This document shows positions 8,960-58,409 of a stretch of DNA of 64,000 bases, piece by piece. Within the stretch, counting starts at the first letter, position 1. Every line of letters begins with the position of its first letter. The notes below the pieces were generated by a model. The model worked only from the letters and a program-made list of their open reading frames with translations. It was not told the DNA's origin and did not search any database. This DNA is from Dioscorea cayenensis subsp. rotundata (Eukaryota; Streptophyta; Magnoliopsida; Dioscoreales; Dioscoreaceae): positions 930,001-994,000 of the forward strand of contig NC_052482.1 of assembly GCF_009730915.1 (NCBI RefSeq), written 5' to 3'. The position numbers were made by a program, and so were the translations under genes.

Positions 8960-11900
8960 TTAATCATCATCAGCATCGCCACTGCTTTTTTGGGATTCAT
9001 CTTCATCTTCTCCATAAACTAGTTCATCTATATCTTCATCTTCATCTTCATCTTCATCCTCACTTTCACCATCCTGGTGATTACTTTCCATTGGCTGAGT
9101 GCCATCCTCTCCAGCCTTATTAATCTGAGGGGAGATAATAGGCACATAAATCTAGTGCAGTCATATCAAACCGAAGTCCAGTAAAGGTATAGGTAAAGTG
9201 AATTTTTAGGTCCCGAATCAGTCATTTTCGTCCTTAGACCAAAAGTAGGCAATTTAGATCTTTGAGTTGGGAGGGTCGTGCAACTTTGGTCCCTCAGGTT
9301 ACTACATCACACATATGGAATTAGATGTTATTATCTTTGATGAAGTGGAGTGGAGGTCTACAAAACACATGACAATCCTACACATATCTGCAAGTATATG
9401 CCATGTCATGTCACTTGGCAATTAGGTTCACTTTTTTAATTTCCATTTTAAATAAAAGTTAACATAAAAACCAAGTGCCATGTGGCATACTTACATGTAC
9501 ATGACATGTCATGTGCCGACCGGACCCTTTACTCCACATATGCAATGATAATAGTATTTAATTTCATGTGTGTGATGTTCTAACGGCAAGAGCCTAAGCA
9601 CACAATCTTCCCGGTCATGGGACCAAAAGATACATTCTTTATAGTTCAAAGATCAAAAACATGAGTTCATGGACTAAAATTGCACTCTAAAGATATCTGA
9701 CCTGTGCCATTATGAGCTGAGCACGACCTGATAGTTTTAGCAAGGTCTGAACAGCTGAACATTTCAAATTGGTCATCTGCAAGGAAAAAAGGAAAGATTT
9801 TTAAAAGATCATATATATACAAATAGATATATAACAGCCACAGTGGAGAAACTGCTCTATTTACTATGTGCTAATGATAAGTCAAAAATATGACGGCATG
9901 AAAATATTTCTATTTGATTTTTAAATGGAAGATATGCTCCAATTTTACAGGGATGAAGGTTCAAGTTATGCATCACATAAATAGCACTATATCCTTTTGA
10001 TATTTTCACAGGCCAATTCCTGCTCAAAGTAGGTTAATGTGCTGGGCCTTTTGGCAGTAAATGAAAGAAAACATCCTTCAAATAGGCAGTATATTAACTA
10101 ATTGGCAGGCATCGATTCCAACAACTTCCACAAAACATTCTAGATACTATTCTAAGAATGAAGCATTTTTGGGTATTTTACAGAGTGCAAAACCCAAGTC
10201 ACCAAAAATAAAAATTATAATATAACAAAGAACAGCAATACTACCAAGATGCAACCAAGACTGAATCAAATATTTGTCAGATTACAAGTAATGAGATTCA
10301 AAGATTACCTTCTGTAATACATCAAGGAGTTGGGAAGAAGATTCCTGAGCAAGGATAAAGCGCCGGTGGTTTAGTAAAATATAATAAATCCAAGGAAGTA
10401 TGTCCTTTGAACAGGCAGGGCTGTCACAAGAAATATAATGTTCATGATCAGACTAAGAATCAAGTTATTAGTTTAGATCAAATTAAGTAACAATATTCTC
10501 CCAAAATACAGACTATGTATAAAGCACTGTAAATAAATAAAAACCGTAAAATATATACTGCTCGAATTACAGTAGGCACCATTACGTAAATAACAATCTC
10601 AACATCATGCAAGGCTGCGCTGAGGAGCCAAAATTTTGAAGGCAGTACATGAAATTTCAGACAATAATGGTTTAGTAAAAGCCTTCCAGAAAAAAGAGAA
10701 AAAAAAAAAGGCAACAAGCAACTATGTAAATTTGAACAAAGACCATGTAGAATATATAACAGAACTTATTAGTCATAGTGTGAGTAATTATCTGAATGTT
10801 AATAATCAGCAAAAATTTAGAAAACCTAGTAATTGTTATATAAAAACGAGAGAAATATTATTTGGTTCTAATATTTGGTATAGAAAATACATCAGTTGTG
10901 ATATTCTGAATAGCCATCTATCAAGCATATGTCATGGTGCAAGTAATATATTAGTCCAATTTAATGCTCCCATTTAACCAATACGAACAAATCCTCAGAA
11001 CTTGAAGTAAACAACATCTGCATGTGTGTAGGCTAATTATTTAGATGCACAATAGGAAAAGATCAAACCTTGTTTTCCACGTTGATGCCAAGAATTCCAG
11101 GAATTTGTAAGCATCATTAGGGCTCATGGATATGACATGTCCCCTTATCTGGTGAAAAAGTTAACAGGTCATCAATGACAATCAGTTAATTTATTATATT
11201 ATCCCTTGTAAGATCTGAAAGCATCCTTCGTAGAAGGAAAAATTCCAGAAAACCACCTGAACAATGTTTTAGTTTACCTATTATTAGGAGAAACGAACCT
11301 TCTTTGCTGGGATGTCACCACCAACCAATAGGTGGGCACCATTGAACATTGTTGCATCAATAGAAGTTTTACCACAATTCCATAGGTAGCCTTCTCTGCC
11401 TATGTCATCTTTCTTACCAACAATTCCCAGTTCTCTCAACCTATCTTCAAGACACGTAGCATTATCTTTTTCCATTCTTAGCAATTTACCTGCAATGAGT
11501 AAAACAACTAGTAACACAGCTGAGCAAAAGAAGTACCAATATCACATGTAGAGTGGAAAGACCAAAGTACGCATAAAAATAGATACATAAAAAAAATTAT
11601 GATTTTCAGGAGGAAAATAACATCACCACAAAGGAAAATACATATCTAAAATCAACCCAAGAATAGTAAATAAACCTCACAACAACAAGGTGGTTATCAA
11701 CATGCCTGATAAGAATGGTCACAGAAGTAATGCATGTGAAGCAAAGGGACAACAATTCTTCATTATATATAGATTGCCAAACTAGCTGTCCAAAATTGTA
11801 AAATAATCTAACATGATGATTTTAAGAAAACTGCTGGAGAAGCCATTATATTCTTCTGAATTGGTCTTCAAAAGTTTTCACTAAATTGCATATGAAATGA

Positions 11901-43412: not shown

Positions 43413-44765
43413 AAAAATGGGTGGTGTAGTATAATTAAGGGTGTTTGGTATATATTTACTTTTTTTTTAATGTTTTTTTTTCTATTTATCTTATATTCAT
43501 GAAAATTTATATATCTATTTATATTGAAAATGAATTATTAGTTGCATATAATATGTCATGAATATGCTCATAATCTTATTTTACATTTTCATTTAACTTT
43601 AATATAACTTATATCAAATATTTGCATTTTTTTATTTTTAATCATCTATTATATTTTTTTAGAGTTTGAATTTAATGACAAATATCGTAAGAAAATAATT
43701 CGAAACTTTTCACATTTCTAGGAGCAACTATATTTCATGGAGCCTCAAACCTACATCGAAGCTCCATGAAATATAATTGCTTAGGTAGTCAGAACCGGAC
43801 CGGACCGGCCGGTCCAACCGGGTTGAACCGGGACCCGGGGCACTAGGCCGGTCCGGTTCACTTTCAAAAACCGAGCAATGAAAAAACCGGCCATGAGCCG
43901 GGAGAATCGCCCTGGTTCAACCAGAACCCGGATGAGCAGGGCGGTTCTCCCGGTTTTAAAACTAATTAAAAAAATTAAAAAAACTTAAATAAACTAGCCT
44001 AATATGATATTAGTAATATGAATATCTTATATTTATATCTAATTATCTATTATGAATTAATGATAATCTAATTAATAATTATCTTATGATTTAATGATTA
44101 TTGATTAATGATTCTTATCAACTTATTGATTATTAATCAAGCCTTCAAGCCTTGATGAGATTAATATTATTTAGTGTTTCATATCAATTTAGTTTAACTA
44201 AATGTTGTTAAATGTTGTGTTTTGAGTATGGAATCAATACTTGTTTGTTTCATAGGTTGTGTATTTGATTTGAAAATTAATATAGGATGTGTATTTGATT
44301 TAAAAATTAATACAATATTTAATGTATTTTATTTTATATTTTTATTTATTAAATCCGGTTCGACCCGGTTCAACCCCGGTTGGACCTTTTGACCCTTGAA
44401 CCTTGGCCTCCTCCGGTTCGAAGGTCCGGTCCGGTTCTGACTAATAATTGCTCCAGAAATGTGAAGAGCTTCGAATTCTTTTTTTGCGATATTTACCATT
44501 AAATTAAAACTCCAGAAAATATAATAGATGATTAGAAGAAAAAATTAAAAAACAAACAAAAATTTGATATAAAGTTATAAATAAAAATAAAAACAAGATT
44601 ATGAGCATATTCTTGCTGATAACGTAAATACAACTAGTAATTCATCTACAATATAAATATATATATATATATATATATATTTATAAATATAAAATAAATA
44701 AATAAAAGGAAAACATAAACAAAATATGTACCGAATACCTTGATTTTATTACACCACCCATTTTT
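43413..44765. mobile_element. Large foldback (long-TIR) element interrupted by another transposon
   Basis: The outer ends are AAAAATGGGTGGTGTA on the left and its reverse complement on the right (ending near 44765). The arms stay paired inward, with shared blocks such as ATATGCTCATAATCTT, AATCATCTATTATATTTT, AATTTAATG with AAATATCG, and TTCACATTTCT. They meet in the hairpin ATATTTCATGGAGC/GCTCCATGAAATAT at about 43730-43775. Without the nested insertion the element is about 680 bases, almost entirely inverted repeat. No target duplication was found outside it, so the superfamily is open. No coding capacity is seen. Confidence 0.75.
43782..44443. mobile_element. GC-ended TIR transposon nested in the foldback element, 9-bp target duplication
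   Basis: Both ends carry TAGTCAGAACCGGACCGG-type sequence in opposite orientation; the right end closes GGTCCGGTCCGGTTCTGACTA. The left end has four extra bases (TAGG) before TAGTC. ATAATTGCT flanks it at 43773-43781 and 44444-44452; the foldback partner arm shows this sequence once, confirming a 9-bp duplication (8 bp also possible). The terminal 150 bases are rich in CCGG/GGTCC, the centre is AT-rich and non-coding. Target length suggests a Mutator-like or hAT non-autonomous element. Confidence 0.78.
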
Positions 44766-45238: not shown

Positions 45239-45493
45239 ATGCTCTCAAACTCCCATCTGAAATCCCTCCACATCTCGTCGATCCACACCGTTCGATCAAG
45301 ATCCAACGGCCGTTATTCTCGATCCAAACCCTACTCTCCTTCTCCTTCCTTCCTTCGCCGGAGCTCCGTCCACTCACTGGCGCGTCAGCTTGCTGCCCTT
45401 CGTCAGGTCCTCATCGATTCACAGAGCCAAAACCATGGCGCCCGAGATCCCCTTCGATCCATCAACCTGCGATCTTGCCGAGCTAATCAATGA
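45239..45493 (+). other. Possible uORF overlapping the start of the GGCT-fold gene
   Basis: An ATG at 45239 opens an 84-codon frame, rich in Ser and Arg, that runs past the main start at 45435 in a different reading frame. If the transcript begins upstream of 45239 it would act as an overlapping, inhibitory uORF; if it begins later the frame is meaningless. It resembles no known protein. Confidence 0.25.
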
Positions 45494-47881
45494 AGCCGAT
45501 TTTCATTCTCTTTGCTCTCCTGATGGCTTCCTCTCTATCTGCGGCTTTGGCTCTCTTCTCTCGGGTTTGATCTTCTCTCTCTCTATCTCTATCTCTTCTC
45601 TCTCTGTCTCTTGTTGATTGAATGCTAGAATTGGCAGAGAAGAGCGCGCGGAGTACGTTCCCGGAACTTAGGGATTTCAGGGTTGGGGTTTTGAGGGGAT
45701 TCCGGAGGGTTTTCGCTCATGTGGCACCGATTTTCTATGACCGAGGAATCGCTCGTCCGGAAACCGCGGTCAGGATCGAGTTCTTGTGTTTTCTGTGGAA
45801 AAAAATTGTTTTTTTTTTTTTTGGTTGGTTGATAATGTGTTGGTTTTTTAGGAGGTTTCAAGCTTGAGCGTGGAGCCTTGTGAGGGGGAATGGCTTGTTG
45901 TTACTGTGTTTGAGATTAAGAAAGAAGAGGTCAAGTTGTTGTTTTGATTGAATTTTTTTCATTTGGTGTGTGAATTGGATTGATTTACTGATAAAAATTG
46001 GATTTTTATGGTTGAATGTTTGTAAGATTAGGACATGGTTTAAGCGCTGAAGTATTGATTTTCAGGATAAATTATTGGTTAAATTGTATATTGTAGGTTT
46101 CGGCTTTCATGGAGAGGGAACATGAGTTCAGGTTTCTAGCTGTGAGTGTCTTCTTAGTTGTTTTGAAAGAAGCTTGTTTGTTCATTGGAAATGTTTTGTT
46201 CTTGCTTGATCTTACTGAGTTCTTTGATTCTGTTGAGTTTGTGTTTATAGGCATTTCCTGAAGACTTGGAAGGGAAACCTTTTACTAGATCAGCAGTAAG
46301 TGCTTGTAAGCTAACTTGATGTTTCTTTTTTAAAACTATGTTCATAGGTTTTAGTGGTTATTATATCCTGTTGTGTTTTGTGCTTGTGTGAATTATTTTT
46401 CAGGTTGTTTGTGCTCGTTATAGTGATGATGAGTATTTTCGCATCAGATGCAAAGGTAATCTATCTATTTTCGTTGTTTAAGAGAATCAGGCTATCTTGC
46501 AGTATTGAACAATTTGATCATTTTTCTTTATGTTTATCAAATAGGGAATGATGCAAAAAAGGGTATAGTAGTTATTAGAATTATAACTCCAGAAAATAGA
46601 TAGGAATACACACTTCTCCCCGATGGTTTCTTGATAATTTTTAAGCTGTTGATATGTTTATCGGCCATATGCTTATTCGTATTCTTGCTTGAATTTTATT
46701 CCTGACTAAGCATTTTTTTTTACTTATGTTAATAAGATTACTGGAGTTCATGTTGGCTCACAATTTTTGAGCTAGCTAGCACAAGTATTACTGGAGTTTG
46801 TATTTTAATGCAAAAGACATGACTTTCTTGGATATACTATTTCTGTATTTTGTTCATCGAGACTGATAGATGCATCACATAATGTTGTTGCTATATTTCA
46901 TGAGCTTGTGTGTCATGTTTTAAAATTTTCAAGAATATCAAAGGTTGAATACCATTATATAATGGAAAATGAAGCAAGTTAGTAGTATAGTTCCTAAAGT
47001 CCAATATCCTACCTAATTTATAATCTATTCAGAATGTCTAGTAGAGTTACCTGAATGCCATACTGGCTCTTTTTGTGATCAGTACATAGAAATGAAATGT
47101 TTGTGTCTCACTGGTCAATATGACATCAGTGCAGAGCTCTATGTACAAATAAATTTGGAATCATATCAACCCATATGTGAGCAAATTTTACTCAAGCTGT
47201 TCTGTGAGTCATGAATGTAATTTTATTCTTTTGCTGCAAATTATCTTATATTGCTGATAAAACTCATTTCCCATCGGTGGTCCCGACAATAGCAGCATTC
47301 ATGATATTGGACACAAGACGCTTAAGATAGCAGATGAACATTGAAATTCATCTTCACTGACAATGCATGTTGTATTTTGTTGATTTTACATCCCATGTCA
47401 ATAATTTGTCAATGAACTCAGAAACTTGAACTTCCTTTGGTGATTTTAAGAGTCTTAAAACCTTTTCCATTGTACTTCCTCTTGTCTTTAATATTCCTTA
47501 CTCGAATCATCTCTTTCTCTTAAATCGACGGCAGGTAGCAGAGAAATTTTCTTCGAGAGATACGGAAGGCATAACATAGATAAAATTTGGCGAGATGATA
47601 TCCTACCTTGCCGTGTTTATCTTCGACATTGGTAATAATTCCGGCATTCATCTTTTCTCTTCATTATCATATAGTTTACACACTCATGATCTGAATAAGT
47701 AAATTATCTCTGCAGTGTCTTGGCAGCGAAAAATCTTGGGCAAATTGCTTACGATAATTTCTTAGACCACACATTCATCGGCGACCGGAAAACAACAATT
47801 CGAGAGTATTTGGCTTCAACAGGATCAGGAATCATGGATGAAGAACCTCCAGAAGAACTCAAGAGTCGATACGGAGGATGA
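45435..47881 (+). CDS. Conserved plant protein with gamma-glutamylcyclotransferase-like (GGCT) fold, 247 aa
   Basis: Eight exons (45435-45564, 45638-45768, 45852-45929, 46097-46141, 46251-46295, 46404-46455, 47535-47631, 47716-47881) join in frame to 247 residues. FLSICGFGSLLSEKSAR (about 32-48) resembles the GGCT-fold signature YGSL/N. VFEIKKEEVSAFMEREHEFRFL (about 107-128) is where the family's catalytic Glu normally sits, with E119 and E121 as candidates. Later stretches (NIDKIWRDDILPCRVYLRHCVLAAKNL and TIREYLASTGSG) look strongly conserved in plant homologues, in which I know of no assigned activity. There is no signal peptide. The ATG at 45435 begins MAPEIPFDPS, which fits; the fold assignment is firmer than any enzymatic role. 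Confidence 0.82.
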
Positions 47882-48405
47882 TTTAAACACCAAAATAACT
47901 TGGCTAGTTCTTGAACTTCTTCAAAATTTGGTTGATAAAGTTGCAATATCTCCTGTCATTGAACATTCTTCTTATATATATATATATATATGAATTATAT
48001 TCATCATTATTCTGGTCATGTAATTAAAGGTTTACTCAATTTTCATGGCTATATTTGCACATTTAACCCTGCAAACTTTGAAGTTTCATTGATAACAGTC
48101 CCTGTGGATATTTATCCAAGTGAAATTTGCACATTTATGCACCTATTATAGTGCATAAAATGCATATTATTTCTATTAAATTAATGCTCACATGTATAAA
48201 GCATTCTGTAATTATCAATAATATTATTATACAAATATAATGGATGCTTTATATTAATGTTATATATTTGCTTATGTACCCCTTTATCAAAAATATTATA
48301 TATATATATATATATAATATCTGTGTAATATATGCAATTAGAGAATTTATATCCATTATATAAAAAATAGATTTAGAAAACCAATTTCTATGGGAATTTA
48401 GTTTA
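47882..48405. other. 3' flank of the GGCT-fold gene
   Basis: AT-rich sequence with (TA)n tracts near 47970 and 48297; no feature beyond probable 3' untranslated region. Confidence 0.4.
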
Positions 48406-48457
48406 GTCCCACATCGGAAAACAAAGGAGTTGGTGACTCAATGGTTGCCTATAAATA
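48406..48457 (+). promoter_or_regulatory. snRNA-type promoter: USE plus TATA at 33-bp spacing
   Basis: GTCCCACATCG (48406-48416) is an exact match to the plant upstream sequence element RTCCCACATCG of small nuclear RNA genes. TATAAATA begins at 48450, leaving 33 bases between, the spacing known for RNA polymerase II snRNA genes (Pol III genes use about 10 fewer). The motif also occurs outside snRNA genes, so function is inferred. Confidence 0.5.
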
Positions 48458-48479
48458 AAGAGAGGGTGTAAAGTCTCAA

Positions 48480-48690
48480 AATTTAACCCGTCCTGTCAGG
48501 GTGAGAGGCGACACGTCAATGATCGTTTAGAGACGGCGGGTCGTGCCGACACCCTGTTTTTCGAACACACGCTTTTAGGGCGAGTGGGTCCCCCACCCTA
48601 CTTTTAGGTGGGTCCCGCCCGCCAATTTTTGGAAGGACCTTATCTTTATGAAAGGGTCCCACCAGCACAACATCACTAAATTAAATTGAA
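48480..48690 (+). ncRNA. Candidate structured small RNA downstream of a USE/TATA promoter
   Basis: Starting about 30 bases after the TATA box, some 190 bases are strikingly GC-rich against AT-rich surroundings. They contain complementary blocks: CAGGGTG with CACCCTG, GTGGG with CCCAC, GGGCG with CGCCC, and GGACC with GGGTCC around a TTATCTTTATGAAA loop. Several arms could form a multi-stem RNA. A 3'-box-like phrase, CAACATCACTAAATT, follows near 48667. I do not recognise U1, U2, U4, U5, U6, U3, 7SL or a telomerase RNA template. It may instead be part of an unrecognised repeat. Transcription is not shown. Confidence 0.3.
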
Positions 48691-48715
48691 GTTTATTTAA
48701 TGTGTCTTACTTTAA

Positions 48716-48861
48716 AGTAAAATACCGATTTAGTTCTTCTGACTTTATTATGATTTGTCTTATTTAGGATAATTTTTGTCTTATTTAAAGTAGAATGCCG
48801 ATTTAGTTCTTCTAACTTTATTATGATTTGTCTTATTTAGGATAATTTTTGTCTTATTTAT
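48716..48861. repeat. 73-bp tandem duplication
   Basis: CCGATTTAGTTCTTCT followed by TTATTATGATTTGTC and TTAGGATAATTTTTG occurs at 48725 and 48798, differing at only a few positions. Confidence 0.85.
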
Positions 48862-49223
48862 GATAATTTGAATATTAAAATAGAAAGATTTTTTTTTTAA
48901 ATAAAAAATATATATATTAGTGGATTTATACGTTTGTAAGTATTAATTTTTTTTATTTTATTTTTTAATTTAATATATTGGTATACTTTTTAATAGTCAT
49001 AATTTTGGTAAATAAAATTTTTTATAAAATTTATATAACTAGTAGTCAGTAAATTAGATAAGAGGGGCTAAAATAATAGATTAATTATATTCGTTTTTTT
49101 CCCAAAAATTATTTTTTTATTTTTTTTTTTGAAAAAAAGGGAAGTATACACATAACTCTTAGTATAGACATGATATTCAGTCATAAAGTACACAATCAGA
49201 GAAGTATACATACAAACAAGTTT

Positions 49224-52200
49224 CTATAACTCTCTTGTGGTGTTATTATCAACAGCATCTTCACATTCATCTTTTTCCAGCTTCTCAATCAGTAACTCCA
49301 TCATTTTCTTGTACATGGGCATGTAGTGATCATTGATCATTGTTCGAGAAAGCCGAATTTTACTGTATAGGTTTCTCGGGGTCTCATAGATGCCGACATT
49401 GTCATCGGCCGAGACTTCCTCGCCAGTGTTAGGATCGATTGATGGCATTGCAACCATATGCATGATTTTACCTGGAGGGAAGAACTGGTGCCGCTCTAAG
49501 TCGTCTGAAGACATCGGCTGCTTGTTCTCGACTGCCTCCATGAGAACGATGTTCTCTTCTTCGGTTATCTCTTTTGCAGCGGCCGCTTCCTCATCTCGAA
49601 CTTGTTTATCGGTCTGTTCCCTCCTGTGAAGTTCCTTTTCCAGTTCAAACCATAATTCACCGTCGGTCATCTCTTCAGCGATGGAAATACGAGTAGTTTC
49701 ATCGGCTTTTATAGGTTCCTCTTCTTCTGATTCCTCGTGGTCAGTGTCTCGAGAGGAACTGAAATCCGCTGCATCGACATCTGTATCAGAGTTGACCTGT
49801 TTGATCAAAAGAGCGTCAGAGTTCGTCTGTGACAAAGTGCGAGAATCGCCTACATCGTCCTCTTTGGAGTTTGCAGATGCACCGATGACACGCCTTCGTG
49901 CACCCATGCAAGACCATGAAGAAAGAGAAGACCGAGTTCGAACAACGGACTGCGCAACATTCTGTGCTTGTTTCATCACAACCTAGGAAGAGAACCAAGA
50001 GTAAATTTAAAAGGAAAAAAATGGCAAGAAAAGAAATCATAAGTGGTACATTTGAACACAAGACAACACATTTCATTAGTGACCTTTTGAATCTTAAGCA
50101 GTTGCCTAAAAGAATCTTTATTTCTACAAAGAACATAATAGTACCTGAGTTTTGCTTGAAACAGGTTCCAGAAGTGCTCCAGCACCGGCAACCCTAGCTC
50201 TTGCACCAGATATAGATGGCAGACGAGATCCTAAAGCCGATGCAGAGCGATACACAACATTCAAGAATCTTGTGTGCTGGACTTGATCTCGCAAGTCATT
50301 TAGCCACGAAGATGCAGTGACCTGAAAATAACCTCATCTTCATTTTTTACTATTCTTGGTACAACTTGATGGAAAAACTACTACTTTCAGAGAATTAAGA
50401 AATGCAACACATGATAGACAAGCGAAACACTAAATGAACAATTAATACAATACCAACGCTGTAAAAACTTTACAAATAGAGGACGGAAACATCAAGGAAA
50501 TCGCACCCTGGTTACTTGACCAGTTTGTACAAATGCATAAATTATTTAAGGCGGAATATGATAGAAGTTTAGTGGTTCTAACTTCTACGTTTTCAGAATA
50601 AATATATTTTGACATAACCAGACAGATTATAGAGAAGTTAAACTTTGTGAGATATTATTACACTGGCAAAGAGGTATAACCTTACAACAAAGAAAGTAAA
50701 TAATGTACAAGCTCAAACATGTGAAGAGTGTGTGGGTTCTTAACCATAATATACCTGAATATTAATAACACTACAAAAGATACTAACCATATGCATATTA
50801 ACTGAGAAGTCAAATTTAGGTTCAATCCACATTCATGGAAGTACCTCTGATCGAAGCTCGTCGATTGATGCAGTTGAGAAGGTGGGAACCAAGTCAGAAC
50901 CATTGATAACTGTAGTAATGAATTGTTTTCCTGACTCCGCAAGATCCCATGTCATGCAAGCAGCTAAGAGAAAAAGATTTACTATTAGCAATCAAGAAGC
51001 CTGGCTTCATGCATACTTGGTTTGGCAAACAACACTTATTAGTGACCAACTAATTGCACTTAGCAAGCTTTTATTGTGGTTAGAAACCAAATAAGGGCAC
51101 TTGATGGTGCGGGAAAACAAATAATCAGCATGACAAGCTTGCAACAGGATTTTGCTACTCACAAGAAAATTTAAGTAGCTACTTAAACTATCATTGCTTA
51201 AGGAAAGCAAAGGATGTAGTTAGGTTCAGTTAGAAAAGATACTTAAGTCATGGATTTCAATAAAGAAAGTATCAGAATACAGCAATGCCACTAGTAACCT
51301 AAACTGATGGTTAACTAAGAGTAGTCATAAATGAAGCATTTTTTTTTTTAATTACAAAAACAAAAGAGAATGAGATGATTAAACTAAAATCCAAAGAATG
51401 CAAACAAGAAGATACATACCTGGAGCAAATGCAACACAAGTACTAGAACAGAATTCTTTATGTTCCCTGAGAATATATGCCAACAGAGCAGCAGTTCCAC
51501 CACCAAGAGAATGCCCAACAATCTACACATCCACAACAACTATGATGAATGCCAGAACAAAGCAGAAGACCAAATTCATGATATATGGATAAATCAAATG
51601 AAAAAGAGTTAGGTCACTCAAATTTATAAATGTACAAAATGGCAATGAAGGAGAAATAGGAACTCAAGCATAGACTTGTCAAGAATGTAGACAAAAGTGA
51701 AGTCGTACCTTAATACTATAGTCTGGATGCTGACTAAGTGCTTTATGGAGGACAGGAGTAGTACGCTTGGCAATACAATGAGCTGCAGCAACCATCCCAC
51801 AATGTGCATATCCTAAGACTAAATTGCTTACTCCCCCTTCATCTAAAACTGAATGGTGAAAAGGTACAACAGCACCCGTTGCAGCAGTCAATGTGTCCTT
51901 AATGCTATGAGTCCCTCGAATTATAAGAAGAAAACATTTTGATCTTTCATCGCGTATGATAGTGAATGCAGGTTTCAGAAGCTGCAAAGAGCTCACAAGG
52001 ATGTCAAAGAATCAATAACACAAAAATGAAAAATCACAATGCTTTTTAAACAAAGAACAAACACATCTAGCAACCATTAATCAAGACCAAGATAAAGACA
52101 CTATAGTACTTACGCACCCCCGCCTTAGCCTCTTGAAGAAGAACATCTGCTTGTGAATAGCCAGCAGTTTCCAAAAACAAATAAAATGGTTTCTTCGAGA

Positions 52201-53002
52201 AAAGCAAACAAAGGTTTAATAATCTCAAGAGATGAATCAACTCCAACATAATCCCCGGGCCGTTTAACTGTACACAATCACTTCCAGCATATACTCTAGC
52301 AACATGAAGATTTCCCTGCAAAATCACACACGATTCTACAATGTGAGACAAAGATCTTCATGGTCTATACAAGCACATCATTCACTGGAAACAATCAAAA
52401 CTCTTAACAAAATTAATGTGTGGGAGACCACCAGGGATCAGCTAATTAGCGGAGAAATCACTTAGTCCTTGACTAAGTAATATATAAATCGATTATATTG
52501 AGGGATTAGCTGAACTCCAAGCAATAAAATGTTCATCCTAAGAGATAATTCACACAGAAAACAAAGAAATAAAAAAAAGTTGAAAATCTACTAGAAATTA
52601 AAAAAACCGAACTTTCTAAATAAAATTGATCAAAATCACGACTTTTTCACTAAAATCAATAAGAAATAGATAACCAATTGTGACGAAAAAGAACATAGAT
52701 CAAAATGAGAAAAATTCACTGACCTGGCGCCTCATGAGGTACTTGATCCCAAACGCCAGATCTCCAATCGGCCACTTCCCAAGCGTCTCCGCGTACGCAA
52801 ACCGCAGCGTCTCCGCCAGAGTGGACGCAGCCTCCCGCCATGTCGCCGGCGCCTGAGCTGGCCGCCGCAGCGCCACCCTCCGTCTTCCCGCCTTCCCGGG
52901 CTTCGAGACATCCTCCACGTCCCGAGCCGATAGTCGCCGGCTCAGGACAAAGTAGAGCAACATCGCCACCCCCGCCGCCGTGGCCATCGTCGCCGTCGCC
53001 AT
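49224..53002 (-). CDS. Class-3 lipase, diacylglycerol-lipase-like, 635 aa
   Basis: Seven minus-strand exons (52724-53002, 52118-52315, 51709-51981, 51420-51522, 50845-50963, 50145-50321, 49224-49982) give 635 residues. An N-terminal hydrophobic segment (AAGVAMLLYFVLS, about 9-21) could anchor it in a membrane. The alpha/beta hydrolase core has KPAFTIIRDE, CFLLIIRGTHSIKD, the nucleophile elbow GHSLGG (S255), INGSDLVPTFS with likely acid D308, and PPGKIMHM with likely H558. An acidic Ser-rich insert (about 410-520) separates acid and histidine, as in sn1-specific DAG-lipase-like proteins. The enzyme should cleave acyl chains from glycerolipids; the natural substrate is not deducible. Exon 2 ends at a GGG-GTGCGT donor, chosen over a stronger GTAAGT four bases later because only the former keeps frame. 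Confidence 0.88.
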
Positions 53003-53021
53003 GGCCTCTGGATCGAGATCG

Positions 53022-53029
53022 AAACCCTA
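53022..53029. promoter_or_regulatory. Telo-box (AAACCCTA) beside the lipase start codon
   Basis: AAACCCTA lies 20 bases upstream of the lipase start codon on the minus strand, probably in the leader. Third telo-box near a gene start in the window. Confidence 0.35.
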
Positions 53030-57461: not shown

Positions 57462-58409
57462 ATGTCTAAAGTCCCAAACACTCTTCTTCTTCTTCTCCTT
57501 CTCTTCTTTTCCACATTCCTCATCACCACCACCACCACCACCACCACCACCACCACCACCTCCACCTCCCAACTCATCTACCACAAAGGTCCTATCCTGA
57601 CCTCCCCCATTAACATCTACATCACTTGGTATGGCTCCTTCTCTCCCACCCACTTCTCCACCATCTCCTCCTTCTTCTCCTCCTTCTCCTCCTCTTCCTC
57701 CTCCATTCCTCACTGGTGGTCCACCACCCAATCCTACAAAAACCTCGCCGGAAAACCACCCTCCACCTCCATCACCCTCGCCGGAACCACCTACCTCTCC
57801 TCCTACCTCGGCAAATCCCTCACCCGCTCCAACCTCATCACCATCCTCAACCACGTCATTTCCAAAGGCTCACTCCCTTTAGACCCCACCGGCATTTACT
57901 TCATCCTCACCGCCGGCGACGTCGCCGTTGAGAGGTTCTGCATGGGTTCATGTGGATTCCATGCAGGCTACGTCGAGGTTATTAAAGGAAAAGAAAAGGT
58001 GGTCTTGGCGCACGTGGGAGACCCCGGTCAACAGTGTCCTGGCACGTGTGCATGGCCGTACGCCGTTCCGGCTTACGGGCCTCCCGGCCCGGCCCTGGTG
58101 GCCCCGAATGGAGTTGGAGTTGATGGGATGGTGATGAACTTGGCGACGGTGATCGCCGGAGCGGCGACGAATCCGGCCGGAGATGGGTGGTATCAAGGTG
58201 ATAGGTTGGCGCCGTTGGAGGCGGTGACGGCGTGCCCGGGAGTGTTCGGGCCTGGGGCTTATCCGGGCTATCCCGGAGAGTTGGCGGTGGATCGCCGGAG
58301 TGGGGCTAGCTTTAATGCTTATGGGGCCGGTGGCCGGAAGTTCTTGGTTCCGGCGATGTGGGACCCGGTTACTGGAACTTGCAAGGTTATTGCTGCTACT
58401 GCTAGTTGA
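57462..58409 (+). CDS. EXORDIUM-like (phosphate-induced protein 1 family) secreted protein, 315 aa
   Basis: An intronless 315-residue frame. A signal peptide (NTLLLLLLLFFSTFLI) is followed by a long Thr run coded by an (ACC)n microsatellite, then LIYHKGPILTSPINIYITWYG, the family's opening. Family marks follow: SGIYFILTA-like TGIYFILTAGDVAVE, FCMGSCGFHAGY, VGDPGQQCPGTCAWPYAVP, GVDGMVMNLATVIAGAATNP, CPGVFGPGAYPGYPGELAVD and SFNAYGAGGRKFLVPAMWDP near the end, with paired cysteines. EXORDIUM proteins are apoplastic and linked to brassinosteroid-dependent growth and carbon starvation; the biochemical activity is unknown. The Thr tract is likely to vary in length between individuals. Codons are very GC-rich. 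Confidence 0.93.
   Translation: MSKVPNTLLLLLLLFFSTFLITTTTTTTTTTTTSTSQLIYHKGPILTSPINIYITWYGSFSPTHFSTISSFFSSFSSSSSSIPHWWSTTQSYKNLAGKPPSTSITLAGTTYLSSYLGKSLTRSNLITILNHVISKGSLPLDPTGIYFILTAGDVAVERFCMGSCGFHAGYVEVIKGKEKVVLAHVGDPGQQCPGTCAWPYAVPAYGPPGPALVAPNGVGVDGMVMNLATVIAGAATNPAGDGWYQGDRLAPLEAVTACPGVFGPGAYPGYPGELAVDRRSGASFNAYGAGGRKFLVPAMWDPVTGTCKVIAATAS
57530..57563 (+). repeat. (CCA)n coding microsatellite
   Basis: About eleven CCA/ACC triplets in a row encode a poly-Thr stretch directly after the signal peptide of the EXORDIUM-like protein. Confidence 0.85.

Follow-up and report, generated by a model that had tools for sequence, protein, structure and literature searches.

The question raised by this locus is which RNA would be produced from a promoter of snRNA type lying in the gap between two plant genes. 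The first-pass annotation of the DNA analysed here, a stretch of 64,000 bases termed the window below, had described an exact plant USE, a TATA box at the 33-base spacing of Pol II promoters and a self-complementary, GC-rich block in an AT-rich gap, and had left the RNA itself unrecognised. The description of the promoter was reproduced in full. An exact match to the USE, GTCCCACATCG, was found at 48406-48416 (+ strand), and the TATA box TATAAATA occupies 48450-48457 of the same strand, starting 33 bases beyond the USE. The GC-rich block begins at approximately 48485. Its GC fraction is 0.60 in the 50-base bin that starts at 48500 and 0.58 in the next one, from 48550, within flanks of 0.14-0.20 upstream (four 50-base bins, 48200 to 48399) and 0.10-0.26 downstream (six 50-base bins from 48700). 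Self-complementarity was evident to a moderate degree, the fold of 48484-48666 being more stable than its shuffles (z -2.45) with 2 of 200 shuffles equally stable.

The motif RTCCCACATCG occurred twice in 64 kb, against a mean of 0.00 in 100 shuffles, and the combination of a USE with TATAA at 31-35 bases occurred a single time when both strands of the 64-kb window were counted. The second exact USE (58354-58364, - strand) is located inside a 315-aa ORF of the opposite strand, has no TATAA at snRNA spacing and is probably a chance occurrence. The monocot element RGCCCR was absent from 48150-48405.

In plants, a longer distance between USE and TATA box specifies Pol II and a shorter distance specifies Pol III. 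The distance at the locus was set beside those of the minor-spliceosome RNA genes found by Rfam model searches of the host genome (584 Mb, 2249 contigs). U11 and U12 were each represented by one gene scoring over cut-off (L024 on C14 and L025 on C12, respectively), both with an exact USE and spacing of the Pol II type (34 bases for U11 and 32 for U12, the latter counted to the first TATA of TATATAAA). The U6atac model gave 18 matches with E-values up to 10, of which four scored over cut-off, and two of these four, L004 (reverse strand) and L005, carried an exact USE with a TATA box 26 bases on. The 33-base distance at the locus is like those of U11 and U12 and unlike those of the two host U6atac genes. 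The evidence supports an snRNA-type Pol II promoter ahead of an RNA that is GC-rich and structured.

At gathering thresholds no Rfam family matched the 64-kb window, but U4atac (RF00618) matched 48487-48636 over the full model (1-132) at 29.7 bits, below its gathering score of 53 bits, so that the earlier statement that the block resembles no spliceosomal RNA was not upheld. The E-value of the match was 0.0046 in 801 bases, 0.37 across all 64 kb and 0.795 when the genome was searched; it was the best Rfam match in the locus and the sole U4atac match among the ten Rfam matches listed for the window. Weak Rfam matches by themselves prove little, because the U4atac model at E up to 10 also matched 11 of 14 prokaryote control genomes (0 above cut-off), in which U4atac is not expected. 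The gathering score is a curation threshold and the shortfall from it measures divergence; the identification is carried by biological features. In the Rfam alignment CAAUGA and CAAUUUUUGGAA are intact, and the parts of U4atac follow one another in the expected order: stem II strand, 5′ stem-loop, stem I strand, 3′ stem-loop and Sm site. The predicted transcript would extend from 48485 to 48660 (+ strand), its 5′ end near 48485 as judged from the TATA distance and the start of the Rfam model.

The stem II strand (48487-48505, + strand) is a near-match to Arabidopsis and is complementary to host U6atac. The stem II sequence deduced for Arabidopsis U4atac is printed in section 9 of PMC545797 as CCCGTCTCTGTCAGAGGAG; the window sequence CCCGTC-CTGTCAG (48487-48499) equals this stem II minus one base, a pattern with a chance expectation of 0.00 in the window. 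With the U6atac strand that this sequence implies, the locus was predicted to form a duplex of -31.2 kcal/mol. At least this stability was reached by 8 of 127,944 28-mers from both strands, every one overlapping the locus (best elsewhere -22.6), and by 0 of 2000 shuffles tried against the Arabidopsis-implied strand. With the strand of host U6atac, which reads ...GACGGUUGGCAUCUCCCCUGACAGGGACGGG... in L005, the duplex was -34.2 kcal/mol, and the 3 of 127,954 23-mers that equalled it were all at the locus (best elsewhere -22.8). This stem II consists of 15 pairs plus GAG/CUC, with a bulged G in U6atac and a bulged U in U4atac, and one A-U pair of Arabidopsis is G-C here, having changed on both sides.

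When stem II partners were crossed, the window gave -31.2 with the Arabidopsis strand and Arabidopsis gave -33.6 with the host, against -39.3 for the all-Arabidopsis duplex. These values tell matched and unmatched partners apart only weakly, and on the host side the preference for the matched partner is slight. A pattern search of the genome for the U6atac-like stem II strand returned 27 places versus 53 for the reversed control; the list takes in two U6atac genes and the present locus, and the search is of no value alone. Stem II combined with CAATGA was also matched on two contigs of viral_contigs; one phage coding region apparently holds both matches, Rfam recognised neither contig even at an E-value of 1, and the matches were set aside as chance.

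The stem I strand UGCCGAC (48544-48550, + strand) is complementary to GUUGGCA of host U6atac, forming 7 pairs of which one is G-U. For this strand of U6atac the Rfam consensus implies GUUAGC, and the host sequence is GUUGGC; on the U4atac side, GCUAAC of the consensus corresponds to GCCGAC in the window. Relative to the consensus, a U-A pair has become C-G on both sides and another pair, A-U, has become G-U. The predicted energy was -12.2 for window with host, -7.9 for window with the implied canonical strand and -9.9 for consensus with host. Strength of this order is common (92 of 63,986 plus-strand 14-mers pair equally well), and the evidential weight of stem I therefore rests on its position. 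Using standard pairs, a Y-shaped complex of stem II, 5′ stem-loop and stem I can be drawn by hand at -48.6, the 5′ stem-loop being given in its free fold, not its kink-turn form. Unconstrained folding of the dimer (window 48485-48560 with U6atac 1-55) reached -63.3; all 15 stem II pairs formed and none of the 7 stem I pairs did. Stem I was likewise absent from another dimer fold with L005. Folding energy gives no support to stem I, and we infer its formation in the real complex from its position and the two-sided change. The free RNA may also form a CAGGGUG/CACCCUG helix that overlaps both stems in part.

Between the two strands, the Rfam alignment and the sequence place a 5′ stem-loop at 48508-48544 (+ strand), with a kink-turn-like AAU-GA/GA (48518-48522 and 48532-48533) and a UC/GA upper stem. 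AAUGA, the UC/GA stem and GA are all present, and an extra C at 48534 lies between the kink-turn GA and the lower stem. The 3′ stem-loop (48579-48622, + strand) was predicted by folding as a long GC-rich hairpin directly before the Sm site AATTTTTGG (48624-48632, + strand), which the Rfam alignment places within CAATTTTTGGAA as in the consensus. Hairpin followed by AAUUUUUGG at 48624-48632 constitutes the stem-loop and Sm site arrangement. An imperfect 24-base direct repeat (75%) at 48584-48631 spans the 3′ stem-loop and the Sm region, and a local duplication may have enlarged the 3′ stem-loop.

A further predicted hairpin, GGACCUU.../...AAGGGUCC (48635-48659, + strand), lies past the end of the Rfam match, and its base can be extended with UGG/CCA into the Sm site. 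This hairpin may be either a mature 3′ stem-loop or a structure of the precursor; it resembles the structures next to the Sm site that PMC10584915 describes in human pre-snRNAs. PMC545797 names the USE and TATA box as shared signals and CAN3-10AGTNNAA as the termination signal. No exact copy of this plant 3′ signal was found in 48600-48900, where one-mismatch forms occur from 48668 onward, and the 3′ end is tentatively placed at about 48634-48662. Directly downstream of the snRNA gene, 48711-48856 is a 73-base tandem duplication (96%).

U4atac is required for splicing of U12-type introns. In the proposed mechanism, the USE, together with a TATA box spaced as in Pol II promoters, would start transcription near 48485. 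The resulting RNA would acquire a cap, with an Sm ring assembling on AAUUUUUGG, and would pair with U6atac via stems II and I on either side of the 5′ stem-loop, to which the 15.5K/SNU13 protein is predicted to bind, and the U4atac/U6atac di-snRNP would bring U6atac to U12-type introns for splicing.

We hold with high confidence that the locus is the U4atac snRNA gene of the host plant, apparently in single copy. The bases of this identity are the promoter motifs, the parts and their order, the single place returned by a DNA search of the genome, the complementarity to host U6atac and the lipase neighbour. A U4atac partner is expected in this host because U11, U12 and U6atac all score over cut-off, and, as far as these searches show, the host has a full set of minor-spliceosome RNAs only if the locus is U4atac.

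The explanation that competes best, although we consider it improbable, is that the locus is a pseudogene or degraded duplicate of U4atac and that the working gene lies elsewhere or is missing from the assembly. In its favour are a stem II that is one base shorter than in Arabidopsis, the additional base in the kink-turn and the low Rfam score. Against it stand an intact USE and TATA box with the distance of Pol II promoters, and stems I and II complementary to host U6atac with changes on both sides. A better copy was also not found in the 584-Mb genome by either the DNA search or the search with the U4atac model. The latter, which scored 49 candidates out of 28,667 from its first look, gave two matches, neither above cut-off: the locus came first (29.7 bits) and L023 second (25.3 bits). 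L023 was rejected as U4atac on account of its protein-coding look by eye and the absence of a USE within 300 bases upstream. What decayed copies look like in this genome may be seen in the two further U6atac-like matches over the Rfam cut-off, L006 (C17) and L007 (C9), which lack a USE in the 300 bases upstream and are perhaps U6atac pseudogenes.

The neighbouring genes also bear on the pseudogene explanation. To the right, a class 3 lipase gene occupies 49224-53026 (- strand; extent estimated from ORF pieces), with Pfam matches to Lipase3_N and Lipase_3 in 3 of 5 pieces tried; none of the 5 pieces tried from the left neighbour (approximately 45435-47881, + strand) had a Pfam match. Arabidopsis U4atac is placed between At4g16060 and At4g16070 (PMC545797) and At4g16070 is counted among the class III lipase genes of Arabidopsis (PMC6282272). 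A lipase neighbour is common to the locus and Arabidopsis U4atac, a putative synteny on one side and at the level of the gene family, which argues against a pseudogene or degraded duplicate and for the U4atac gene itself.

The first-pass annotation had suggested that the RNA could be a capped small nuclear or nucleolar species not yet described. Its promoter of the Pol II snRNA type and its GC-rich structured RNA were retained, and the RNA lost its unrecognised status through the full-length, sub-threshold Rfam match, stems II and I, the Sm site and the complementarity to host U6atac. A resemblance to U4atac arising by chance could draw on the scores of all families, each below its Rfam gathering score, and on the omission of stem I from the unconstrained dimer fold. 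It would have to produce the U4atac parts in their correct order, a stem II strand that pairs with its U6atac counterpart better than any other place in the window does (127,944 28-mers), and two-sided changes in the pairing with host U6atac, and we regard it as scarcely credible. A repeat family with a USE-like promoter, the alternative named in the first-pass annotation, might be suggested by the imperfect 24-base direct repeat in the block and the 73-base tandem repeat downstream. It would be expected in several genomic copies and is very improbable, the DNA search of the 584-Mb genome with 48395-48680 (simple repeats and very common words left out) having returned the locus alone at its sensitivity. 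Very probably, then, the locus is a new U4atac gene with some lineage-specific features and not an undescribed RNA; U4atac is a known kind of gene, of which this member is very probably divergent enough to miss the Rfam cut-off.

The nearest described counterpart is AtU4atac of Arabidopsis (At4g16065). As PMC545797 describes that gene, the two are alike in a nearly identical stem II, the USE and TATA box, an Sm site close to the 3′ end, an apparently single gene copy and a class III lipase neighbour; compared over stem II, the locus differs in having one base fewer and one G-C in place of A-U. With the RF00618 consensus the locus shares the order of parts, CAAUGA and CAAUUUUUGGAA. It departs from the consensus in its stem I and stem II strands, where host U6atac differs to match, in its long GC-rich 3′ stem-loop, in the extra C of the kink-turn and in the hairpin beyond the Sm-site end of the model. 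The U4 snRNA of the major spliceosome is analogous to U4atac in order of parts and in role, and is presumably a member of the same Rfam clan; of overlapping matches within a clan only the best is kept, and at the locus U4atac was kept.

These features suggest why U4atac has been reported missing in plants. A 2020 coffee genome survey (PMC7549347) reports no U4atac in coffee and, among plants, its identification only in Arabidopsis and beet. The pan-eukaryote survey PMC10639083 searched with the Rfam model of U4atac and set its E-value limit at 0.01, by which the present locus (E 0.795 in the genome search) would probably be missed. With slightly less than even confidence, we propose a plant-lineage U4atac in which co-evolved U6atac-pairing strands, an extra kink-turn base and a post-Sm hairpin lead Rfam-based surveys to score the gene absent in plants that do possess it. 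A text search of the open-licence literature with four printed stem II strings returned PMC545797 alone. Reading the stem strands from host U6atac and combining them with USE/TATA spacing and the Sm site would find such genes and could improve the model.

Elsewhere in the window, long hairpins were observed at 9360-9520 and 43700-43880, each with weak miRNA-family matches on both strands; these may be inverted-repeat mobile elements.
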